Positions 7,526 to 20,850 of a DNA stretch of 64,000 bases are shown in pieces. Each line of letters starts with the position of its first letter. Positions within the stretch are counted from its first letter, which is position 1. The notes below the pieces were generated by a model, which saw only the letters and a list, made by a program, of their open reading frames with translations, did no database searches and had not been told where the DNA came from. The stretch comes from Lysinibacillus sp. FSL M8-0337 (GTDB lineage: Bacteria > Bacillota > Bacilli > Bacillales_A > Planococcaceae). The position numbers and the translations under genes are program-made. The DNA lies in assembly GCF_038593855.1 (NCBI RefSeq), contig NZ_CP151996.1, positions 3,534,001-3,598,000 of the forward strand. The letters run 5' to 3'.

Positions 7526-8119
7526 TTATATATAGCCTTTATCTGTTAAAAATGTTGTTAACTGCTCTACACATTCCTCAATAGAATAGAGTTCGGTATC
7601 CAAAATAAATTCGGGATGTTCAGGTTCTTCATAGGGCGCACTAATACCTGTAAAATTAGCAATTTCCGCATTGCGCGCTTTTTTATATAGACCTTTTGGA
7701 TCGCGCTGTTCACATGTTTCTACGGAGCATCTTACATACACTTCTAAAAATTCTCCCTCTTCCACTAGCTGTCGAACGACTTGACGATCTTGTCGATAAG
7801 GTGAAATAAAGGCCGTAAGCACAATTTGACCACTCTCCACAAAAAGCTTAGAAACTTCCCCGATACGTCTTATATTTTCCTTACGGCTTCCTTCGTCAAA
7901 GCCCAAATCATTATTTAATCCATGTCTTACATTATCACCATCTAATACGAACGCCTGATTACCTCGCTCAAATAATGTACGTGCAAAGGCGTTTGCTACG
8001 GAAGATTTTCCTGATGCCGATAATCCTGTAAACCATAAAATAAAGCTATGATGGTTGTTTTGCGTGCGACGCTCTGTTTTCGTAATAGAAGCTTCATGCC
8101 ATACGATATTGAAACTCAT
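7526..8119 (-). CDS. cysC: Adenylyl-sulfate (APS) kinase
   Basis: Phosphorylates APS to PAPS with ATP in the cytoplasm, the second step of sulfate activation. 197 residues with the P-loop GLSASGKSS at about 33-41, the DGDNVRHGL motif near 62, and [10 protein letters not shown] near 104, all typical of CysC. Last gene of cysH-cysP-sat-cysC; its ATG overlaps the sat stop by four bases, so the two activating enzymes are translationally coupled. Confidence 0.96.
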
Positions 8120-9255
8120 TTTAATACCTCCTTACGCATGCCTTTTATTAGTACATCGACAACCTCTTGACGGCTAAAGGTACTTGGAGGCACTTCTCCA
8201 TTACGGAGCATTTCCCGGACTTTCGTTCCTGATAATATTACATGTGATGCACTATCATGCGGGCAAGTTTTTGTAGTTGCCATGCCTTCACATCGAGTGC
8301 AATAGAAACTATGTTCAAACTTTAAAGGCACAATGCCAAGTTCATCTTCGGTAAATTGTTCAAAGATTTTTTGCGCATCATATGTGCCATAATAGTCTCC
8401 TACACCTGCATGGTCACGTCCTACAATAAAATGGGTACAGCCGTAATTTTTCCGCACTAGTGCATGGAAAATGGCTTCCTTAGGCCCTGCATAGCGCATA
8501 GCCGCTGGGAACACACCTAACTGCACACGACTTTGAGGATAGTAATTTTCCAAAAGCACTTCATAACTTTCCATACGTATAGCGGCTGATACATCATCCG
8601 ACTTCGTTTCACCGACTAATGGATTTAAAAATAAGCCATCAATTGTTTCTAATGCCGCCTTTTGAATATATTCATGCGCACGGTGAACAGGATTACGCGT
8701 TTGGAAGCCAACAATTGTTTGCCATCCTTTGTCTTTAAACAACTGTCTTGTTTCTGTTGGATCAAATGAATACGTAGGGAATGGTTGCTCTAGACGCTTA
8801 ATTAACGTAATTTGACCACCAACATATATCGCCTGCCGTTCATGTAACTTTTTCACACCAGGATGGGCTAAGTCTTGTGTACCGTAAATAAGTAGTGCCT
8901 CTTTTTGCTTGTCTGGTTCATATATATCCGCGATATGAATAACACCATAGACATCGTTACCATATATTAATTTTGCTTCATCCCCTGGTTGTAAAGTTGC
9001 TGCTACTGCCTGATCAACAGGAAGTGTAATAGGGATACTCCACACAACGCCAGAGGCCAACCTTGTATGTTCAACAACAGATTCATAATCTTCTTTAGTT
9101 AAGAAACCGTCGATTGGGCTATACCCTCCAATTGCGATTAATTCTAAATCGCTTAACGCAATGGTATCTAAAACAATCTCCTTCTTAATATGTACTACTG
9201 ATTTTTGTGGATTATAAGCTTGCACTAAAGTGCCGCCATGTGGTTGTAAACTCAT
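8116..9255 (-). CDS. sat: Sulfate adenylyltransferase (ATP sulfurylase)
   Basis: Makes APS from sulfate and ATP. 379 residues, normal for bacterial homo-oligomeric Sat. [11 protein letters not shown] near residue 184 is the QxRNPxHxxHE substrate motif and GRDHAG near 280 is the second nucleotide-binding motif. A C-terminal cysteine cluster ([13 protein letters not shown]) fits the zinc-binding type. The start has GGGGGAAT upstream. It lies between cysP and cysC in one minus-strand operon. Confidence 0.96.
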
Positions 9256-9297: not shown

Positions 9298-10362
9298 TTA
9301 AATGCCTTCACCAGCATCGTATATGGATTGTTCTTCTTCACGCATTGTTCGCATTAAACTAATAGCACCAAGCGTTCCGATTATAACGCTCCCCATAATG
9401 ACGATGGCATATAAATCTTTCTCCATAAATAACTGAATCAGACTATAAGAAATCGCTAATGAAAAAATAGGTGATACAATCCAAATACACATAATTTTCT
9501 TTACAATATGTTTATGAAAAATTTGTTTACCGCTTTTCGCCATTCCGATACCAATAATAGAAGAGGAAGTTACTTGCGTTAATGGCACAGGTAATCCCAA
9601 CAAGGAACTAATACCAACAAGCAAGGCACCTGTAGTTGAAATAAGAATGCCTTCAGCTTTTTCAAAACGCACTATCTTTTTGCCATTTGTTTCGAGTACA
9701 CGTCTTCCTAGCAACAACGCCCCTAGTGCAACAAAAGCACCGCCTAGCCAAATACCCTTTGTCACCGTAATCATACCAGCACCAACAAGTGGGCCTACTG
9801 CATTGGCAACATTATTCATACCTGCAGAAAAAGCTTCAAAAAATCCCGCAAATACGAGTAGCACTGTTAAAATAGGGTGATTTGTCAAAAAACTCTTCCC
9901 TTGAAATTTATACAGTACTTTGCCAACTATAAAGGCAATAACAAACGCAATAACGGGAACGATTACCCAAAAAGACATAATCACGAGCAATGATTTGACA
10001 TATAGCACACGGTAGGCAATTCCTACACCTACAACAGCTCCTACGGTCACTTCACTCGTCGATAAGGGGATGCCTAACAAATTGGCAAGAAACAACGCAC
10101 TTGTCGCAGAAATTAATATAATGATGACGATTTTCACAGTAATATACTGTTGTGGCATAATACCTGAACTGATAGTCTTGACAACTTCACCGCCACCCAA
10201 TATAGCGCCTGCCAAAACCCCTATCGCACAAATTAACAATGCGTGCCTTGCTTTTTTTATAGCTCCTGCCCCATAGGCAACACCCATTGACGCTGCTGCA
10301 CCACTTGCCCCAATATTCATTGCAAAAAATAAACTTATGGCTAATGCAATATATTCTAGCAT
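9298..10362 (-). CDS. cysP: PiT-family permease, probable sulfate permease CysP
   Basis: 354 residues and about ten hydrophobic helices, in two inverted PiT halves. GMNNVANAVGP near residue 181 is the PiT repeat signature. PiT proteins usually carry phosphate, but B. subtilis CysP, encoded in the same place in cysH-cysP-sat-cysC, carries sulfate. The operon position therefore argues for sulfate here. It starts 13 bp after cysH stops and ends 42 bp before sat. Substrate is inferred from context. Confidence 0.87.
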   Translation of the reverse strand: MLEYIALAISLFFAMNIGASGAAASMGVAYGAGAIKKARHALLICAIGVLAGAILGGGEVVKTISSGIMPQQYITVKIVIIILISATSALFLANLLGIPLSTSEVTVGAVVGVGIAYRVLYVKSLLVIMSFWVIVPVIAFVIAFIVGKVLYKFQGKSFLTNHPILTVLLVFAGFFEAFSAGMNNVANAVGPLVGAGMITVTKGIWLGGAFVALGALLLGRRVLETNGKKIVRFEKAEGILISTTGALLVGISSLLGLPVPLTQVTSSSIIGIGMAKSGKQIFHKHIVKKIMCIWIVSPIFSLAISYSLIQLFMEKDLYAIVIMGSVIIGTLGAISLMRTMREEEQSIYDAGEGI

Positions 10363-10375
10363 GATTTAAACGCCC

Positions 10376-11077
10376 CTATTCATGTAACCCACATTCAGTT
10401 TTACCCGTTCCTTGCCATCTACCTGCACGTAAATCATCCAACGTAAATGCAGGTTGTGTGCAGTGTTCACAGCCAATACTCGGATAGCCTTGATCGTGTA
10501 ATGGATTGTACGTTAGGTTATGCTTGGAAACATAACGCCATATATCTTTCCATGACCAATGAATAAGTGGACAAATTTTAATGGATTTGAATTTTTCATC
10601 CCGATTGATAAAATTTGTCTGTTGCCGAGTTGGCGATTGTTCTCTGCGCAGCCCTGAAATCCAAGCTTTTGCTCCTGATAACGCCTCATGTAATGGCTTT
10701 ATTTTTCGGATGTCACAGCACTGATTAGGATTGGACTTCCATAATTCATCGCCATATTGTGTCTTTTGCTCTTCAAGTGTCAGCTTAGGCTTTTGCAGTA
10801 TAATCGTTAGCTGCGGATAGTTTGCTTTTACTCGTTCAATCGTGTCATACGTTTCTTTGAAATGGACATCTGTGTCTAAAAAAACAATCGTAGCATTTGG
10901 CTTTACTTTTGAAATCAAATCAATTAACACAATTCCCTCAATACCAAAGCTACACGCATATACAATCTCATCTCCATATTGTGCATAGCTCCAGCGTAAC
11001 ACCTCAAGTGCACCTTTATAGGATTCATCCACTTCAAAATTAGTCGTTGGCTCCTGCCAAGTTGCATACGTTAACAT
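10376..11077 (-). CDS. cysH: (P)APS reductase
   Basis: Reduces APS or PAPS to sulfite with thioredoxin. 233 residues. The PP-loop-type nucleotide domain includes [16 protein letters not shown] pair (NQCCDIRK) plus CEHC form the four-cysteine set that binds a 4Fe-4S cluster in APS-type enzymes. The C-terminal ECGLHE carries the catalytic cysteine. The 4Fe-4S ligands suggest APS use, although the B. subtilis enzyme accepts both substrates. First gene of the operon, behind a leader with an intrinsic terminator. Confidence 0.95.
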
Positions 11078-11098: not shown

Positions 11099-11180
11099 GA
11101 AAAAGGCGTTTTAACAACAGATACAATAATGCATTGTATCTTCGTTAAAACGCCTCTAGTTTGACTAGCCAGCATTTATG
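11099..11180 (-). promoter_or_regulatory. cysH leader: shared hairpin motif plus attenuator-like terminator
   Basis: Read on the minus strand: GCTGG, a CTAG...CTAG hairpin, then AGGCG, which opens a long terminator stem (GGCGTTTTAAC pairing with GTTAAAACGCC, inner stem AGATACAAT/ATTGTATCT) followed by T5. The terminator ends about 20 bp before the cysH start, so it must be overcome for expression. The same arrangement precedes sbp and cobA. No S-box or T-box core was seen. The leader function is inferred. Confidence 0.7.
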
Positions 11181-11236
11181 ATGATTGTAAACTAGTAATC
11201 TTGTACCTCATTCAACAATCACTTTTCTTATTACCC

Positions 11237-11271
11237 AATATATACTAAATTACACCTAGTAGTCAACTAGG
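11237..11271 (-). promoter_or_regulatory. cysH promoter with palindrome over the -35
   Basis: On the minus strand TTGACT (-35) and TATATT (-10) are 18 bp apart. The -35 lies inside CCTAGT-TGACT-ACTAGG (11255-11271), a perfect 6-5-6 inverted repeat. A copy with 15 of 17 matching bases covers the -35 of the divergent sbp promoter, so a shared DNA-binding regulator is likely. Which one is not known. Confidence 0.6.
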
Positions 11272-11432
11272 TTTTGTAAAAATATAAACATATTTAAAGA
11301 ATGTCGTTTTACACCTTTTAGAACTGTCACTTTCGTTATATACAAATAATTTTATTCATAAAAAGAGTCTTTTGCTACTCGTTACCACACTTAGGGAAAA
11401 ACCTATCTAAAAATTTCAAATATTTTATAATT

Positions 11433-11466
11433 CCTTGTTGACTAATAGGAAATATATGTTTAATGT
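11433..11466 (+). promoter_or_regulatory. sbp-cysTWA promoter with matching operator-like palindrome
   Basis: TTGACT (11438-11443), a 17-bp spacer and TAATGT (11461-11466). CCTTGTTGACTAATAGG at 11433-11449 matches the cysH operator-like sequence at 15 of 17 positions. Confidence 0.6.
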
Positions 11467-11469
11467 GGT

Positions 11470-11560
11470 ACTAAGCTAAAAAAACAAAACATGCTGATCA
11501 GATTATCTGAAGGCCATCTCCTTAACATGTGTTAATACATGTTGAAAGAGATGGTCCTTT
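11470..11560 (+). promoter_or_regulatory. sbp leader: shared hairpin motif plus attenuator-like terminator
   Basis: ACTAAG, a 17-base A-rich linker, GCTGA with a TCAG...CTGA hairpin, then AGGCCATCTC, which starts a terminator stem closed by GAGATGGTCC and T4 (inner stem AACATGT/ACATGTT). The hairpin bases differ from the cysH and cobA copies yet still pair. It ends about 30 bp before the lipoprotein start, so readthrough is needed. Confidence 0.7.
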
Positions 11561-11591: not shown

Positions 11592-12644
11592 ATGAGAAAA
11601 AGAAAGACTATTTTTCAAACAATTGTACTCTTATCGGGGTTAACAATTATGTTAACAGGATGTAATAGCACGTCCAAAGATAACGATACAACTTCGGAAG
11701 ACACACAAAAAACAGTTGAATTACTAAATGTATCTTATGATCCAACACGTGAGCTTTACGATGAATTTAATCAAGACTTTATCGCAAAGTGGAAAAGCGA
11801 AACAGGGCAAGATGTAAAAATTCATCAATCACATGGTGGCTCGGGTAAACAAGGGCGTGCGGTTATTGATGGTCAAGAAGCCGATGTTGTCACATTAGCA
11901 CTTGCTTACGATATTGATGAAATTGCCCAAGCTCGTAATCTACTAAACAAAGACTGGCAAACAGAATTTGAAAATAATTCTACACCTTATACTTCTACCA
12001 TTGTTTTTTTAGTAAGAAAAGGGAATCCAAAAGCGATTCAAGATTGGGATGATTTAGTAAAAGACGATGTCTCAGTCATAACGCCAAACCCAAAAACTTC
12101 AGGTGGTGCCCGTTGGAATTACTTAGCCGCATGGGGCTATGCAGCGAAATTGTATAACAATGACGAGAAGCAAATAAAAGATTTTATGAAGGCTTTGTAT
12201 AGCAATGTAGAGGTACTGGATTCTGGGGCTCGCGGCGCAACGACTACCTTTGTTGAAAGAAAAATTGGTGATGTGTTAATTGCCTGGGAAAATGAAGCTT
12301 ATTTATCACTTAATGAATTAGGGAAAGATGCATTCGAAATCATTACACCTTCTTTAAGTATTTTAGCAGAGCCTCCTGTAGCAATCGTTGACAAAATTGT
12401 AGATAAAAAAGGGACGCGTAAAGTGGCAGAAGCATACCTACAACATTTATATAGTGATATTGGCCAAGAGATTGCCGCAAAAAACTACTATCGACCACGC
12501 AATGAAGATATATTAGCAAAATACCAAGCACAATTCCCTAAGCTTGAACTTATTTCCATTGAAGACTTTGGGGGTTGGACAGAAGCTCAGACAACACATT
12601 TTAAAGATGGTGGTACATTTGATGAAATTTACGTTCCAAAATAA
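11592..12644 (+). CDS. sbp: Sulfate ABC transporter, substrate-binding lipoprotein
   Basis: Extracellular sulfate/thiosulfate-binding component. The start is the ATG at 11592: AAAAAGGAG lies upstream and it gives a proper lipoprotein signal (MRKRKT, hydrophobic core, LTGC lipobox near residue 21). A longer frame from 11529 would cover the leader terminator and is rejected. The mature part carries the sulfate-binding family patterns [21 protein letters not shown] and ARGATTTF. 350 residues. It heads sbp-cysT-cysW-cysA, eight bases before cysT. Confidence 0.93.
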
Positions 12645-12652
12645 GGAGGCAT

Positions 12653-13489
12653 ATGATGACTAGCCTAACATTTAAAAAGAAGCCGGCTCGTGTTATTCCC
12701 GGCTTCCACCTTTCACTTGGTTATACGATGCTCTACGTAAGCTTGCTTGTGCTCTTACCTTTAGCCATGATTTTCATTCATACCATGTCGTTAAGCTGGG
12801 CAGAGTTTATGGCAATTGTCACCGACCCTCGAGCAATTGCCTCCTACAAGCTAAGCTTTGGCACTGCACTTACTGCTGGTTTAGTAAACGTTGTGTTTGG
12901 CACCATTATCGCTTGGGTACTCGTACGCTACCACTTCCCGTTTAAACGTATTATTGACGGTCTTGTAGATTTACCATTTGCTTTACCTACGGCAGTAGCA
13001 GGTATTGCTTTAACATCGCTATATACCCCGAATGGCTGGATTGGCCAGTTTTTCGATTTTAAAATCGCCTTTACACCACTCGGTATTATAATTGCTCTAA
13101 CATTTATTGGTCTTCCATTTGTTGTGCGTACTGTGCAACCTGTTTTACAAAATATTAGTGTGGAAGTTGAAGAAGCCTCAGCAAGTTTAGGGGCAACACG
13201 TCTGCAAACTGTATGTAAGATTATTTTTCCTGAACTTGCACCAGCCATTTTGACTGGCTTTTCATTAGCCTTTGCACGTGCATTAGGAGAATACGGTTCA
13301 GTTGTCTTTATCGCTGGTAACATGCCGATGAAAACAGAAATTACACCGTTAATCATTATGACAAAGCTTGAACAATATGACTACGCGGGTGCCACGTCTA
13401 TTGCTGCTGTTATGCTGATTACATCCTTTGTCTTATTATTTACGATGAATCTTATTCAATGGCTAGCAAATCGCCGCTTTATACATTAG
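12653..13489 (+). CDS. cysT: Sulfate ABC transporter permease CysT
   Basis: 278 residues, six helices, with the permease EAA loop (VEEASASLGATRLQT) that contacts the ATPase near residues 178-192, and the CysT-type start of helix region LVRYHFPFKRIIDGLVDLPF. It pairs with CysW to form the membrane channel for sulfate/thiosulfate. AAGGAGG precedes two adjacent ATGs (12653, 12656). Nine bases separate it from cysW. Confidence 0.94.
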   Translation: MMTSLTFKKKPARVIPGFHLSLGYTMLYVSLLVLLPLAMIFIHTMSLSWAEFMAIVTDPRAIASYKLSFGTALTAGLVNVVFGTIIAWVLVRYHFPFKRIIDGLVDLPFALPTAVAGIALTSLYTPNGWIGQFFDFKIAFTPLGIIIALTFIGLPFVVRTVQPVLQNISVEVEEASASLGATRLQTVCKIIFPELAPAILTGFSLAFARALGEYGSVVFIAGNMPMKTEITPLIIMTKLEQYDYAGATSIAAVMLITSFVLLFTMNLIQWLANRRFIH

Positions 13490-13498
13490 GAGGTATTT

Positions 13499-14374
13499 AT
13501 GGATCAGTCTACGATTATTGAACCTTTGGCTCCACAAACACGGATTGTAGCAGCAAAGCCCGCTGCCTTACAGGAGCCTCGCTTCTTTCGTTATGCATTA
13601 ACATTTATTGCACTTGCATTTTTAGCATTTTTTATCGTACTCCCTCTCGTATCGATTTTTATTACAGCCTTTCAAAAAGGGGCAGACGTATACTTTGCAG
13701 CAATCACACATCCAGATGCTTTAGCTGCTATTCAGTTGACCTTAACAGTAGTAGCAATTGCCGTTCCTTTAAATGCCATTTTCGGCATTATGGCTGCTTG
13801 GGCATTAACGAAATTCAATTACAAAGGAAAAAATTTATTATTGACCGTAATTGACTTACCTTTTGCTGTATCGCCCGTGATTGCAGGTTTAGTGTTTATC
13901 TTGCTATTTGGTGCACAAGGGCTATTTGGAGATTGGCTATTTGCTAATGACATTAAAATTGTTTTTGCCTTACCTGGCATTGTGCTTGCGACTATATTTG
14001 TAACATTACCTTTTGTTGCACGTGAGCTTGTTCCGTTAATGCAAGCACAAGGAAATGCTGAGGAAGAGGCTTCCATTTCTCTCGGAGCAAATGGCTTTAA
14101 AACCTTTTGGTATGTAACATTACCCAATATTAAATGGGGGTTAATTTACGGTTTAATTTTATGTAATGCACGTGCCATTGGCGAGTTTGGTGCAGTTTCT
14201 GTTGTCTCAGGTCATATTCGAGGTATGACGAATACAATGCCACTTCATATCGAAATTTTATACAATGAATACCAATTTTCAGCAGCTTTTGCTGTTGCTT
14301 CATTGATGAGTGTGTTAGCGATTATTACGCTTGTTATAAAAGATATTGTTGCATGGAAATCGAAATCAATTTAA
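13499..14374 (+). CDS. cysW: Sulfate ABC transporter permease CysW
   Basis: 291 residues and six helices, with the EAA loop [16 protein letters not shown] near 183-198 and the CysW-type end [19 protein letters not shown]. The N-terminus has about 30 extra polar residues before helix 1. GGAGG lies seven bases before the ATG. Second permease of the sulfate importer. Confidence 0.94.
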
Positions 14375-14389
14375 AGGAGGTATTCTTGC

Positions 14390-15460
14390 GTGAGCATTCA
14401 AATTCAAAATGTTTCTAAGAAATTTGGTTCTTTTCAAGCTTTACAAGATGTATCCATCGATATTCAATCTGGTGAATTGGTTGCGCTACTTGGCCCTTCT
14501 GGTTCTGGTAAAACGTCTTTACTGCGCGTGATTGCAGGGCTTGAAGCATCGGATGTTGGCGAAATCTTATTTGACGGCCAAACAATTACCAATCATCACC
14601 CGAAGGAACGAAACGTAGGCTTTGTCTTTCAGCACTATGCGCTCTTTCGCCATATGACGGTCTTCGATAATGTTGCCTATGGATTGAAAGTACGACCACG
14701 AAAAACAAGACCATCCAAAGCAGAAATCACCGATAAAGTAATGACCCTACTGCGACTTGTTAAACTAGAAAATTTTTCTGATCGCTATCCAACACAGTTA
14801 TCTGGTGGCCAACGTCAACGGGTTGCACTTGCGCGTGCACTTGCTGTGGAACCTAAAGTCCTTTTACTAGATGAACCATTTGGAGCACTTGATGCAAAAG
14901 TGCGTAAGGAATTACGGCGTTGGTTGCGGAAGTTACATGATGATTTTCATATTACAAGTATTTTTGTTACGCATGACCAAGAAGAAGCACTCGATGTCGC
15001 AGATCGTATCGTTGTGATGAACAACGGCAAAATTGAGCAAATTGGAAGTCCAGATGAAGTGTACACCCATCCTAAAAGTCCATTTGTTTATGATTTCTTA
15101 GGTAATGTTAACCTCTTTAAAGGGCGTTTACATAACGGTAAGTTGACACATGGAGAATTTGCCATTGATGTGCCAGATACGCATACCCATACACAAGAAG
15201 ATGCAGTAGGCTATGTGCGACCACACGATATACAAATTGAAAAAACAGCGGTAGCAGGCACTGTCCCCGCTTATATAAGCCATATTCATTTGCTTGGACC
15301 GATTGTTCAAATTGAACTCCGTCGTTATGACATGGATGAATTTTTAGAGGCAGAACTGACAAAAGAACAATTTTTAAGTCTTCATCTTAAAGTAGGCGAC
15401 AATGTATTTGTGCGACCAAAGCAATTAAAAGTATTTATCCCAGAAGATTATTCTATTTAA
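14390..15460 (+). CDS. cysA: Sulfate ABC transporter ATP-binding protein CysA
   Basis: 356 residues. Walker [10 protein letters not shown] near 35-43, Q-loop FVFQHYALF, signature [15 protein letters not shown] near 136, Walker [12 protein letters not shown] and the switch histidine in [12 protein letters not shown]-terminal TOBE-like regulatory part follows (from about residue 240). GTG start with AAAGGAGG eight bases upstream. It powers import through CysT/CysW. A repeated hairpin terminator follows the stop. Confidence 0.95.
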
Positions 15461-15611: not shown

Positions 15612-17333
15612 TCATTCCTTATGGAATTCTCGACCATCAAAGACGGCTGTTACATAACCTGCACGAATGACAAAATCCCCGAAATGCTCGCCCTCTACAC
15701 GGTCCTTTGCATAGTGCAGCATAATTGGACGTAGTTCGGCTAAAATTTCTTCTTCCCCAATATTTTCGCGATAAATTTTATTTAAACGATTGCCTGTAAA
15801 GCTTGCGCCAAGATACATGTTATATTTTCCTGGACCTTTGCCGATAAAGCCGATTTCACCCATTGCAGCACGTGAGCACCCATTTGGGCAACCCGACATA
15901 CGAATAACGATTTCCGTATCATGTAAACCCGCTTCATCAATAATCGTATCAATTTTCGTAATAAGTGAAGGCAAATAACGTTCCGCCTCTGCCATTGCTA
16001 AACCGCAAGTAGGCAACGACACACAAGCAATGGAATTACGGCGCAACGCTGAATAGTGGGCACCGTCTGTTAACTTATACTGCTCAATAAGCGCAGCAAT
16101 GATTTCCTTCTGCTGTTGCGATACATTGCCAATCATTAAATTTTGATTTGGTGTTAACCGGAAGTCACCCGTATGCACTTTGGCAATTTCTCGTAAACCT
16201 GTTAACAGCTCATAATCCTCAAAATCTTTAATGCGCCCATTTTGAATAAATAACGTATAATGCCATTTACCATTTGCACCTTTAATCCAACCAAATTCAT
16301 CGCCCGTTCGCTCAAATGTAAATGGACGCTCCGCTTGTATTTCCCACCCTAGCCGACGATGTAATTCTGTTTTAAACCAGTCGAGTCCACGTGCATCAAT
16401 TGTATATTTAAAACGGGCATTTTTACGAATTGAACGATTGCCATAATCACGCTGTATCGTAATAATTTTCTCTGCCGTCTCAAGTAATTTATCTGGCGTA
16501 ATAAAGCCAATCATACGCGCAAGCTGTGGATACGTTTCATGATCACCATGTGTCATCCCCATACCTCCACCAACGACTACGTTAAAACCTACAAGCTGCT
16601 CATCTTCAACAATTGCAATAAAGCCAATATCTTGTGAATAAACATCGACATCATTACTCGGTGGAATCGCAATACCAATTTTAAATTTACGAGGCAAATA
16701 TTGTGCACCGTAAATTGGCTCGATTTCTTCTTCTTGGCTATCCACTACTTTTTCGCCATCTAGCCATAACTCGTGATAGGCACGTGTTCTAGGCAATAAA
16801 TGCTCACTTAACTTTGCTGACCAATTGTAAATTTCCTCATGTAATGCTGATTGATTGGGATTGACATTACACATTACATTGCGGTTAACATCCCCACATG
16901 CAGCAAGAGAATCTAACAGTACTTCATTTATTTCTTGCATATATTTTTTGACATTCCATTTTAAAATCCCGTGCACTTGGAATGCCTGACGCGTTGTTAA
17001 TTTTAATGAACCATTGCCATATTTTCTTGCCATCTCATCCATAACAAGCCACTGTGCAGGTGTTGCCGCACCACCAGGTGTACGTACGCGCACCATAAAC
17101 TGATACGCTGGCTCTAATTTTTGACGTTGCCGTTCATTTCTTAAATCTCGATCATCCTGTAAGTAACTCCCATGAAATTTCATTAAGCGATTATCATCTT
17201 CAGGAATACCTGAACTTAAAGGTTCGTTCATTGTTCTTTCTAGTGTCCCACGCAAGTAATTACTATCGCTTTTAATACGCTCGACATCACTTGGTGTTCC
17301 AGGTTGTGGGGGTAAAATAATTTTTCCAGTCAT
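15612..17333 (-). CDS. cysI: Assimilatory sulfite reductase, hemoprotein subunit
   Basis: Six-electron reduction of sulfite to sulfide on a coupled siroheme and 4Fe-4S centre. 573 residues, normal length. The two cluster/siroheme ligand motifs are visible near the C-terminus: [15 protein letters not shown] and [19 protein letters not shown] and [14 protein letters not shown] are other conserved siroheme-binding stretches. It follows cysJ by 16 bp with GGAGCGAG before ATG. Last gene of the cobA-sirB-yezD-cysJ-cysI operon. Confidence 0.97.
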
Positions 17334-17349: not shown

Positions 17350-19134
17350 CTAATAAACGTCACGTTGGTAGCGCTTTTGTTGTTTCAAATCATTGATATA
17401 TGCTTTCGCTTCTTCAGGCGTTTTGTGCCCTTGCTGCTCAATAATGCGACAGATTGTTTGATCAACATCCGCAGCCATCGATTTTTCATCACCACAAACG
17501 TAAATAACAGCCCCTTGCTCAAGCCATTTATAAAATACTTGTGCCTTTTCGAGAATTTTATGTTGGACGTATACTTTTTTATCTGTATCACGTGAGAAAG
17601 CAACATCCATTTGAGCCAATGTGCCTGAAGCAAGCCAGCGCTGCCAATCTGTTTGATAAAGGAAATCGGTGACAAAATGTTGATCGCCAAAAATCAGCCA
17701 AGAATTTCCTGTTATTCCTACCTCTTCTCGCTGCTCTAAAAAAGCACGATACGGCGCAACACCTGTGCCCGCCCCAATCATAATAATTGGTGTATCTGCT
17801 TGTTCTGGCAATCTAAAGTTTGGATTTTTATGGACATAAATCGGTACTGTATCGCCCACTTGAATTCGCTCTGCAATACTGCCCGAACACACGCCTAAAC
17901 GCTTTCGACCAGCCGTTTCATAACTCACTTTACCAATTGTTAAATGGACTTCATCACTATTGGCCAATTGGCTACTAGCAATGGAATACAATCTCGCTGG
18001 AATTTTACGAAGAAGGGCTACAAACTGTTGTGCATCCCAAGTAAAAGGAGCAAAATCTTCAACGACATCAAGTAAATCTCTTCCTCTTGCATAATCCTTC
18101 CATGCTGTAGCACTTTCACATAGCTCTGCAAATGCTTTATGCACCGTAAAAGCACTTATTTTTTGTAAAAGAGGCTTCGATAACACTGTAATTTCTAATT
18201 TTTTTTGAAGCGCCTCTTTTAATTGCATGGATTCCTCAAACACCGTTACTTCTGTTTGGGGATGAAACTGTAAGGCTGTGATTAATGCATCTACTAAAGA
18301 TTCATCATTTTCTGGCAAAATACCAATGCTATCTCCAGGCTCAAAATGTAAATTTGCACCTTCAATGGACAACTCAATATGACGTGTTTCCTTATTCGAG
18401 CCACGACCATTTAAATTGATATTTTCCAATACTTCGGCATAATACGGATTTTTGCGGGAATATGTAGCCTCTTCTTCTAATAATGGCGTTGCTTTTGAGA
18501 CAATCGCTGTATCGCTTTGCTGTAATAATGCCTGTTGAACAGCTGTAAACCATTTGGCTGCTGGCTCATCGTAATCAACATCACAGTCTGTACGTGAAAC
18601 GATGCGTTTCGCACCTAACTTTTCAAATTGTGCGTCAAAATCCTGCCCAGTTTTACAGAAAAATTCATATGAGCTATCTCCTAATGCCAAAACGGAAAAG
18701 TGCAGATGTTCTAATTTAGGTGCACGTTTACTGTGCAAAAATTCATAGAATTGAATTGCTTGATCGGGTGGTTCCCCTTCACCATGCGTACTCACTACGA
18801 GCAAAAGATTCGTTATTTTCTTCAAATTATTTGGCTTAAACTTTGCTAAAGATGTGACAGTCACCTCAATATCATTTGCTTTTAATGCAGCTGCATATTT
18901 TTCAGCGAGTCCTTGGCTATTTCCTGTTTGTGAGCCATATAATAGCGTCACCATTTTCGTCTCAGGTACTACCGACAATACTGCTTCTTCTACAACGGTA
19001 TCTACTGTTGTTAGTGGAGCACTTAAGTATCCATTCAACCATATTTTTTGTTCTCCAGTTAATTTAGGTAGAAGTTCATTTAATAGCTTCACCTGTTCCT
19101 CATTAAAAGGACTGTTAATTACTTGCAGTTTCAA
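17350..19134 (-). CDS. cysJ: Sulfite reductase [NADPH] flavoprotein subunit
   Basis: Supplies electrons from NADPH through FAD and FMN to CysI. 594 residues: an N-terminal flavodoxin domain (LLYGSQTGNSQGLAEKYA near 64), a linker, an FAD domain (RLYSIASS) and an NADPH domain (MIGAGTGVAPYRAFLEQR, then YVCGDEKSM). The end DLKQQKRYQRDVY is the usual CysJ terminus. GAGGTGG sits before the ATG. It follows yezD by 28 bp. Confidence 0.97.
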   Translation of the reverse strand: MKLQVINSPFNEEQVKLLNELLPKLTGEQKIWLNGYLSAPLTTVDTVVEEAVLSVVPETKMVTLLYGSQTGNSQGLAEKYAAALKANDIEVTVTSLAKFKPNNLKKITNLLLVVSTHGEGEPPDQAIQFYEFLHSKRAPKLEHLHFSVLALGDSSYEFFCKTGQDFDAQFEKLGAKRIVSRTDCDVDYDEPAAKWFTAVQQALLQQSDTAIVSKATPLLEEEATYSRKNPYYAEVLENINLNGRGSNKETRHIELSIEGANLHFEPGDSIGILPENDESLVDALITALQFHPQTEVTVFEESMQLKEALQKKLEITVLSKPLLQKISAFTVHKAFAELCESATAWKDYARGRDLLDVVEDFAPFTWDAQQFVALLRKIPARLYSIASSQLANSDEVHLTIGKVSYETAGRKRLGVCSGSIAERIQVGDTVPIYVHKNPNFRLPEQADTPIIMIGAGTGVAPYRAFLEQREEVGITGNSWLIFGDQHFVTDFLYQTDWQRWLASGTLAQMDVAFSRDTDKKVYVQHKILEKAQVFYKWLEQGAVIYVCGDEKSMAADVDQTICRIIEQQGHKTPEEAKAYINDLKQQKRYQRDVY

Positions 19135-20073: not shown

Positions 20074-20850
20074 TTATACTGACATCTCTTTGAAAGGCAT
20101 TTGTGGACAAACTTCCTCAAACCATTGGATTTTTTCCCTTAATGTCACCACCTTACCAATTACAATCATGCTCGGATTTTGAATTTTTTCTTGTTGTACG
20201 ACATCCACAATAGTTGCTAATGTACCTAGCACCGTTTTTTGTTGTGCACATGTTCCCCAATGAATAAGTGCGACAGGCGTTTGCGCATCACGTCCATATC
20301 GCAGTAACTGCTGTTGAATATAAGGTAAATTGCCAACACCCATATAAATCGCAAGTGTATCAATCCCTTTAGCAAGGCTTTCCCATTGAATACCATCATC
20401 TTTTCCTTCTCGCATATGCCCTGTGACCATTGCAAAGCTTGAACTCAAATCCCGATGTGTAACAGGAATACCCGCATAGGCAGGTGCAGCTATACCAGAT
20501 GTAATACCAGGTATGACCTCAAATGGTATATGATGTTGTGCCAGTACTTCAGCTTCCTCCGCCCCTCTACCGAAAACGAATGGGTCACCTCCTTTTAACC
20601 TTGTGACGATAAAACCTTGTTGAGCATAGCTTACAAGCGAATGATTAATATGCTCTTGAATCATGGCATGCCGATTTGGTAATTTACCGCAAAATATTAA
20701 CTTGGCACCTTTTTTCGCATAGGCTAATAAATCCTTATTGACCAGTCTGTCATATAAAATGACATCCGCTTGTTCAATGCAGCGCAATCCACGCACTGTA
20801 ATCAAATCAACATCTCCAGGACCCGCTCCTACTATGAACACTTTCCCCAT
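20074..20850 (-). CDS. cobA: Uroporphyrinogen-III C-methyltransferase
   Basis: SAM-dependent methylation of uroporphyrinogen III to precorrin-2. 258 residues; VGAGPGDVDLIT at the N-terminus, RLKGGDPFVFGRGAEE near residue 84 and VIPGITSG near 109 are the SUMT signatures. First gene of the operon, with GGAAAGGAG before ATG and a terminator-bearing leader upstream. No SirC or CysG-type dehydrogenase domain is fused, and no separate sirC is seen in the window. Confidence 0.95.
   Translation of the reverse strand: MGKVFIVGAGPGDVDLITVRGLRCIEQADVILYDRLVNKDLLAYAKKGAKLIFCGKLPNRHAMIQEHINHSLVSYAQQGFIVTRLKGGDPFVFGRGAEEAEVLAQHHIPFEVIPGITSGIAAPAYAGIPVTHRDLSSSFAMVTGHMREGKDDGIQWESLAKGIDTLAIYMGVGNLPYIQQQLLRYGRDAQTPVALIHWGTCAQQKTVLGTLATIVDVVQQEKIQNPSMIVIGKVVTLREKIQWFEEVCPQMPFKEMSV

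Follow-up and report, generated by a model that had tools for sequence, protein, structure and literature searches.

Transcription antitermination by BglG, SacY and LicT relies on the RAT. This short hairpin is imperfect, has an asymmetric internal loop and shares sequence with the 5′ arm of a terminator. The proteins stabilise it through a small domain dedicated to RNA binding, and the gene of the regulator often adjoins the terminator. ANTAR antitermination makes use of paired hexaloop hairpins. Sulfur genes in Bacilli are also controlled by premature termination at the SAM riboswitch (S-box, RF00162).

Here we describe a hairpin-terminator element in leaders of sulfur operons of Lysinibacillus sp. 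FSL M8-0337, found in a 64-kb window (the whole stretch of DNA that was analysed, 64,000 nucleotides), together with its putative protein partner, YezD. By analogy, our best reading is that this system would work like BglG/RAT antitermination, with an unrelated protein and an unrelated RNA. As with the RAT, the hairpin (through its lower stem) and the terminator are mutually exclusive by sequence and folding, and yezD often adjoins the terminator; the small RNA-binding role is, for YezD, only proposed. There are differences too: the targets are mainly sulfur rather than sugar genes, and we take the YezD hairpin to be unlike the RAT. It is also unlike ANTAR targets, as each leader carries one hairpin with a loop mostly of 4-5 nt (3-8 permitted in the search). 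In a Pfam scan with E up to 10, DUF2292 was the sole match of the window YezD, with no CAT, PRD or ANTAR domain.

In the part of the open-licence literature listings that was covered, no RNA target or regulatory role is given for DUF2292/YezD and no YezD-hairpin pair is described. B. subtilis yezD is listed as a gene of unknown function whose deletion caused no loss of viability in deep starvation (PMC6385201), and the pertinent part of PMC7921472 lists a change in DUF2292 expression and nothing further. In bacilli, Naville and Gautheret (2010) reported one terminator element shared by the upstream regions of a sulfonate ABC operon and of an unknown gene (PMC2965389); by term counts, cysH and yezD are absent from the main text of that article, and its sulfonate-operon attenuator may be the same element as ours.

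Three sulfur operons with a common leader

The window contains three sulfur operons: cysH-cysP-sat-cysC; the divergent sbp-cysT-permease-like ORF-sulfate transporter ATPase; and sumT-ORF-yezD-cysJ-cysI (Table 1). A sequence-only reading had proposed that the cysH and sbp leaders share one design, a small hairpin plus a terminator. This design is indeed present in both, and also ahead of sumT. The hairpins span 21-22 nt and consist of 3 bp, a GA/A internal loop, 4 bp and an A-rich loop of 4-5 nt, with GG/A replacing GA/A in the cysH leader. RNAfold predicts the cysH 22-mer as (((..(((((...))))).))), at -5.4 kcal/mol. In 3/3 window leaders the motif AGGC belongs both to the hairpin and to the first strand of the terminator, as the same reading had noted.

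Table 1 Features of the three operons and their leaders, in window coordinates.
Feature	Position	Strand	Basis
cysC, adenylyl-sulfate kinase	7526-8119	-	TIGR00455 above cut-off
sat, sulfate adenylyltransferase	8116-9255	-	NF003166 above cut-off
cysP-type sulfate permease	9298-10362	-	NF053884 above cut-off
cysH, phosphoadenylyl-sulfate reductase	10376-11077	-	TIGR00434 above cut-off
cysH-leader intrinsic terminator, 5′ base AGGC = hairpin 3′ strand	11155-11104	-	
cysH-leader hairpin GCTGG-CTAG-TCAAA-CTAG-AGGC	11173-11152	-	sequence and folding
Candidate cysH-operon promoter TTGACT-18-TATATT	11237-11266	-	10/12 consensus; partly within CCTAG..CTAGG palindrome
sbp-leader hairpin GCTGA-TCAG-ATTAT-CTGA-AGGC	11493-11514	+	
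sbp-leader intrinsic terminator, AGGC common to hairpin	11511-11556	+	
sbp, sulfate ABC transporter substrate-binding protein	11592-12644	+	NF008022 above cut-off
cysT	12653-13489	+	above cut-off
Permease-like ORF, sulfate ABC transporter operon	13499-14374	+	ORF list, not in profile scan
Sulfate ABC transporter ATPase	14390-15460	+	TIGR00968 above cut-off
cysI, sulfite reductase hemoprotein	15612-17333	-	TIGR02041 above cut-off
cysJ, sulfite reductase flavoprotein	17350-19134	-	TIGR01931 above cut-off
yezD, DUF2292, 49 aa, proposed hairpin-binding antiterminator	19312-19163	-	Pfam PF10055 50.1 bits, cut-off 22
ORF between sumT and yezD	20064-19312	-	ORF list, not in profile scan
sumT/cobA, uroporphyrinogen-III C-methyltransferase	20074-20850	-	profile scan
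sumT-leader intrinsic terminator, AGGC common to hairpin	20932-20883	-	
sumT-leader hairpin GCTGA-CTAG-CAAA-CTAG-AGGC	20949-20929	-	

A fourth copy of the hairpin lies outside the window, before an ssuE-like gene; the cluster to which this gene belongs, NADPH-dependent FMN reductase (SsuE-type), is named after its representative. The Rfam scan of the whole window gave 0 matches at gathering score, in line with the earlier statement that the leaders have no S-box or T-box core; between 11060 and 11600, with E up to 1, a sub-threshold Srn266 match (minus strand) appeared alone. The YezD hairpin further differs from the SAM riboswitch in being a separate element, located downstream of yezD.

The candidate cysH-operon promoter comes from a scan that overall was not above shuffles (14 versus 15.4). 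A palindrome, CCTAG-TAGTCAA-CTAGG (11255-11271), overlies its -35 box, and TTGACTNATNGGAA-like -35 regions are seen in the sbp leader and in some related ones. A DNA operator common to these promoters is possible, and a DNA-binding regulator may act at the cysH palindrome in addition to the hairpin.

Specificity and covariation of the hairpin

We searched with the pattern GCTGRYYAGN{2,9}CTRRAGGC and took the same pattern reversed as control. It matched four times in the 4.56 Mb of the genome (control: 0) and in 53 of the 151 genomes of a family sample, with control matches in 5/151. With 3 mismatches permitted, three matches in the window by itself are unremarkable: 8/100 shuffles contained as many. 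Across the class, 44/398 genomes had a match versus 29 with a control match; as the bare pattern is not specific at this scale, later searches relied on the terminator and on a covariance model. A generalised descriptor with free stems of 3 and 4 bp, a GA/A internal loop between them, a loop of 4-5 nt and an overlapping terminator gave 254 unique matches across the window and the fetched loci, against 0 in a block-shuffled copy. This number measures specificity, not frequency, since most loci had been retrieved because of a hairpin or a yezD gene.

In an alignment of 70 distinct hairpins, 99.8% of cells are paired and five of seven pairs vary on both sides; among 29 variants picked for diversity, both-sided change extends to 7/7 pairs. 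Both sets are biased towards pairing, because the rules by which they were gathered demanded pairs. A non-circular test is offered by the two pairs that the pattern leaves free (Y against R): both are Watson-Crick in 144/145 pattern matches with an overlapping terminator versus 16/41 without. Taking the compensatory stem change between leaders as a sign of RNA structure was justified. The lower stem occurs as GCY/GGC, ACY/GGU, GUC/GAC and UCY/GGA. GA opposite A, for which the window's cysH hairpin has GG, and the A-rich loop are conserved. Six yezD loci (L386, L390, L387, L391, L416, L423) carry altered lower stems (GUC/GAC, UCC/GGA); the first rule was blind to them, and the generalised one admits such variants. 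On these sequence criteria, the hairpin-terminator is a real and widespread RNA element.

An ACTA motif, which the sequence-only reading had placed at the head of the leader design, does stand 16-19 nt before GCTG in the three window leaders. It was found 14-27 nt upstream of the hairpin in 22/235 leaders versus 14/235 in a shifted window, which rules it out as part of the element.

Distribution and downstream genes

The hairpin-terminator was found across Bacillota and in Geobacter relatives, mostly upstream of sulfur genes (cysH, sbp, ssu, cysK, metY). Among the matches listed in a scan of named genomes, which include chance matches, are Bacillaceae-type genera, Fictibacillus, Brevibacillus, Sporomusa, Pelosinus, Clostridium, Heliobacterium, Geobacter relatives and others.

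For 235 unique hairpins with a terminator we classified the next gene, each class being named after one representative per cluster: CysH (48), Sbp (29), SsuB-type ATPase (14), SsuD-type monooxygenase (13), SumT (11), SsuE-type (10), CysK-type (9), TauE (8), SsuA-type (8), MetY-type (5) and YezD (4). The other 76/235 fall beyond these eleven classes; for six of them no ORF was found. Further downstream genes, not all of which reach the family cut-off, include taurine dioxygenase-like, SfnB-like, LarE, sulfopropanediol dehydratase, YeiH-type, PHO4-family permease, rhodanese and nitrogenase-like. Several, such as a dihydrodipicolinate-synthase-like protein and a GntP permease, have no evident relation to sulfur.

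In five loci (L096, L110, L142, L152, L161), the hairpin is followed by nitrogenase-like genes of the NifH and component-1 types, which may encode methylthio-alkane-type sulfur-scavenging reductases.

Co-occurrence of the hairpin with YezD

In the family sample, the pattern is present in 43/56 genomes with both YezD and CysH, 9/15 with YezD and no CysH, 0/10 with CysH and no YezD, and 1/70 with neither. YezD is thereby found in 52/53 pattern-bearing genomes (Fisher p 3e-23, kinship not corrected for), and the match in the one exception, G007, is without an overlapping terminator. The hairpin tracks YezD rather than cysH.

In the class sample of 398 genomes, the covariance model had a match in 68 at E<=1e-3, a threshold chosen after the list was seen; YezD is encoded in 63/68 of them versus 94/330 of the others. 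The five genomes with a model match and no YezD are G289, G343, G399 and two of Streptococcus, G365 and G475; in the first three, neither YezD nor a descriptor hairpin-terminator was found. We then consider 36 further genomes picked from named loci: YezD is present in 29/30 with hairpins, G516 being the single one without PF10055, and in 0/6 false-hit genomes, a soft control because these come from other groups. A terminator accompanies 29 of these 30 hairpins, L117 being without one though its genome has YezD, and three hairpins (L103, L109, L155) each fall within an open frame of 300-400 aa.

Conversely, the model found no match at E<=1e-3 in 94 of the 157 class-sample genomes that encode YezD. 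Among 40 yezD loci taken from genomes missed by the model, 28 have a hairpin by either rule, in 24 cases within 200 nt after yezD; the model search, with its strict filters, therefore misses true cases. Neither rule detected a hairpin in the other 12/40. A look-alike is visible by eye in two of them (L406, L422), and in the remaining ten (L384, L389, L392, L399, L403, L404, L410, L412, L417, L421) no hairpin was found by either rule within the surrounding 6 kb. Some YezD genes may have other hairpins, or none.

Adjacency of yezD and the hairpin

The two are frequently neighbours. For 35/152 hairpins in the pattern-fetched loci, yezD ends on the same strand no more than 200 nt before the hairpin, compared with 269/50000 random positions there. 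The same spacing holds for 21/77 hairpins in loci L209-L282, which were retrieved along with the model search or later, and for 16/18 in yezD-fetched loci. The arrangement seen most often is yezD, hairpin-terminator, cysH (37/64 adjacent cases).

At many loci, yezD has its stop codon inside the hairpin or within about 30 nt of it. Such proximity would suit translation-coupled attenuation, with ribosomes that finish yezD covering the hairpin and setting the terminator, so that yezD would be a leader ORF acting in cis. However, 117/152 hairpins of the pattern-fetched loci, including those of the window and ssuE-like leaders, have no yezD directly upstream, and the Lysinibacillus genome holds a second, separate yezD copy, with no recognisable sulfur gene in the surrounding 3.1 kb. 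We regard this mechanism as very improbable. Where yezD is not adjacent to the hairpin, as in the window, YezD would have to act in trans.

SAM riboswitches upstream of yezD

In 11 yezD loci (L186, L197, L207, L188, L192, L184, L191, L180, L204, L179, L190), which make up 2/3 and 9/20 of two scanned sets, the YezD domain is preceded by a SAM riboswitch at a distance of 98-198 nt. None was found directly before yezD in a further 40 yezD loci (one is about 2 kb away) or in the two yezD loci of the Lysinibacillus genome. As yezD stands behind a SAM riboswitch in some genomes, YezD would be made there when SAM is scarce; this one branch probably couples YezD production to low SAM. In these 11 loci, the S-box, yezD and the YezD hairpin-terminator follow in series, as two consecutive attenuators.

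YezD-like proteins of satellite phages

In the two Streptococcus genomes with a hairpin and no PF10055 (G365, G475), the partner is a divergent YezD-like ORF. The ORF that ends at the hairpin in such loci has 54-57 aa (from ATG), and its second half resembles YezD. A tblastn search returned 104 records, 104/104 of them Streptococcus satellite phages. PF10055 scores of three phage proteins are 26.1, 17.4 and 16.6 bits, one above the cut-off of 22 and two below, and a profile comparison of YezD with six phage proteins gave 95.6%. They also match PBSX XtrA (PF17356) and DUF3954 weakly, all below curated cut-offs, so that kinship with these families is not established.

On viral contigs, the descriptor hairpin was found in 16/60 stretches, and a YezD-like ORF could be recognised by eye just upstream in 13/16; of the remaining three, one ORF is cut off and two are unlike YezD. 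Among 10 fetched satellites, a strict hairpin lies <=5 nt from the ORF end in six, a similar one is seen by eye in three, and one has none. Downstream, the first annotated gene encodes a major capsid protein in one satellite and a hypothetical protein in nine.

These findings bear on the two options that the sequence-only reading had left for the leaders, a sulfur-metabolite riboswitch or a protein-bound attenuator. In the former, a very small riboswitch, the hairpin would bind a sulfur metabolite and compete with the terminator, yezD being merely another target. Most classified downstream genes do belong to one metabolic area, and the terminator overlap resembles a riboswitch expression platform. 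Yet the shared part amounts to just 21-22 nt with exchangeable stems, the hairpin tracks YezD in CysH-positive and CysH-negative genomes alike, and in satellite phages YezD-like ORFs stand beside it without an adjoining annotated sulfur gene. We therefore judge a riboswitch distinctly unlikely and retain the protein-bound option. The earlier interpretation is supported in this part; it had made no mention of yezD in the third operon. As the hairpin is usually accompanied by YezD or a look-alike, YezD probably binds it, and the genomic evidence taken together strongly indicates YezD as the protein partner.

The YezD protein

The predicted structure of YezD comprises one helix and a beta hairpin (pLDDT 88.5); structure comparison revealed no clear PDB relative and no recognisable RNA-binding fold. 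Two neighbouring YezD domains, apparently in one frame of roughly 100-160 aa, occur in G517-G519, G524-G527, G530, G532-G534, G536, G537 and G539, which are many of the non-Bacilli genomes. This pairing suggests a dimer as the working unit.

A protein without a known RNA-binding fold could instead be a co-selected accessory of the regulon, the hairpin being recognised by another RNA-binding protein or by RNA polymerase itself. The 12/40 yezD loci with no hairpin nearby, all from genomes without a model match, would be compatible with such a role. That a YezD-like ORF stands beside the hairpin in satellite phages as well as in sulfur operons argues against it, and we find it unlikely.

Proposed mechanism

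With YezD as the probable binding partner, the predicted folds allow us to propose a mechanism. Taken alone, the four hairpins of the genome (cysH, sbp, sumT and ssuE-like) have folding energies of -5.3 to -6.0 kcal/mol. In unconstrained folds of the leaders the terminator forms, and forcing the whole hairpin costs, relative to these folds, 6.5 (cysH), 2.1 (sbp), 2.7 (sumT) and 9.7 (ssuE-like) kcal/mol. The competition is confined to the lower stem and its flank: in the predicted sbp fold, the upper stem coexists with the terminator. The earlier suggestion that refolding could control termination is borne out by this competition. Because the unconstrained fold favours the terminator, termination is the predicted default and the lower stem would need to be held.

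By default, then, the long terminator would close and transcription would halt ahead of the sulfur genes. YezD would bind the small hairpin upon its emergence and keep the lower stem shut. The 3′ strand of that stem doubles as the terminator base that adjoins the U tract; with the hairpin kept shut, the terminator could therefore not close, and read-through would follow. YezD would act in trans on such leaders of a genome, that of its own operon included, and would therefore serve as a relay of the sulfur-starvation regulon.

We infer that YezD binds RNA directly, that it does so in the direction of antitermination and that the signal is one of sulfur. Judging from the genomic and folding patterns, it is very probable that YezD binds the hairpin, prevents termination and so turns on sulfur acquisition.

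More broadly, it seems likely that YezD/DUF2292 constitutes a previously unrecognised superfamily of small RNA-binding antiterminators with a cognate hairpin. It would relay sulfur starvation to sulfate, sulfonate, taurine, cystine and even nitrogenase-like operons across Bacillota and the Geobacter group, with satellite phages gating phage genes by the same pair. If true, this would assign a role to a widespread DUF and name a missing sulfur regulator in many bacteria. It would also place a new protein-RNA pair among the few dedicated antiterminators, and link a metabolic switch of the host to the control of phage genes.
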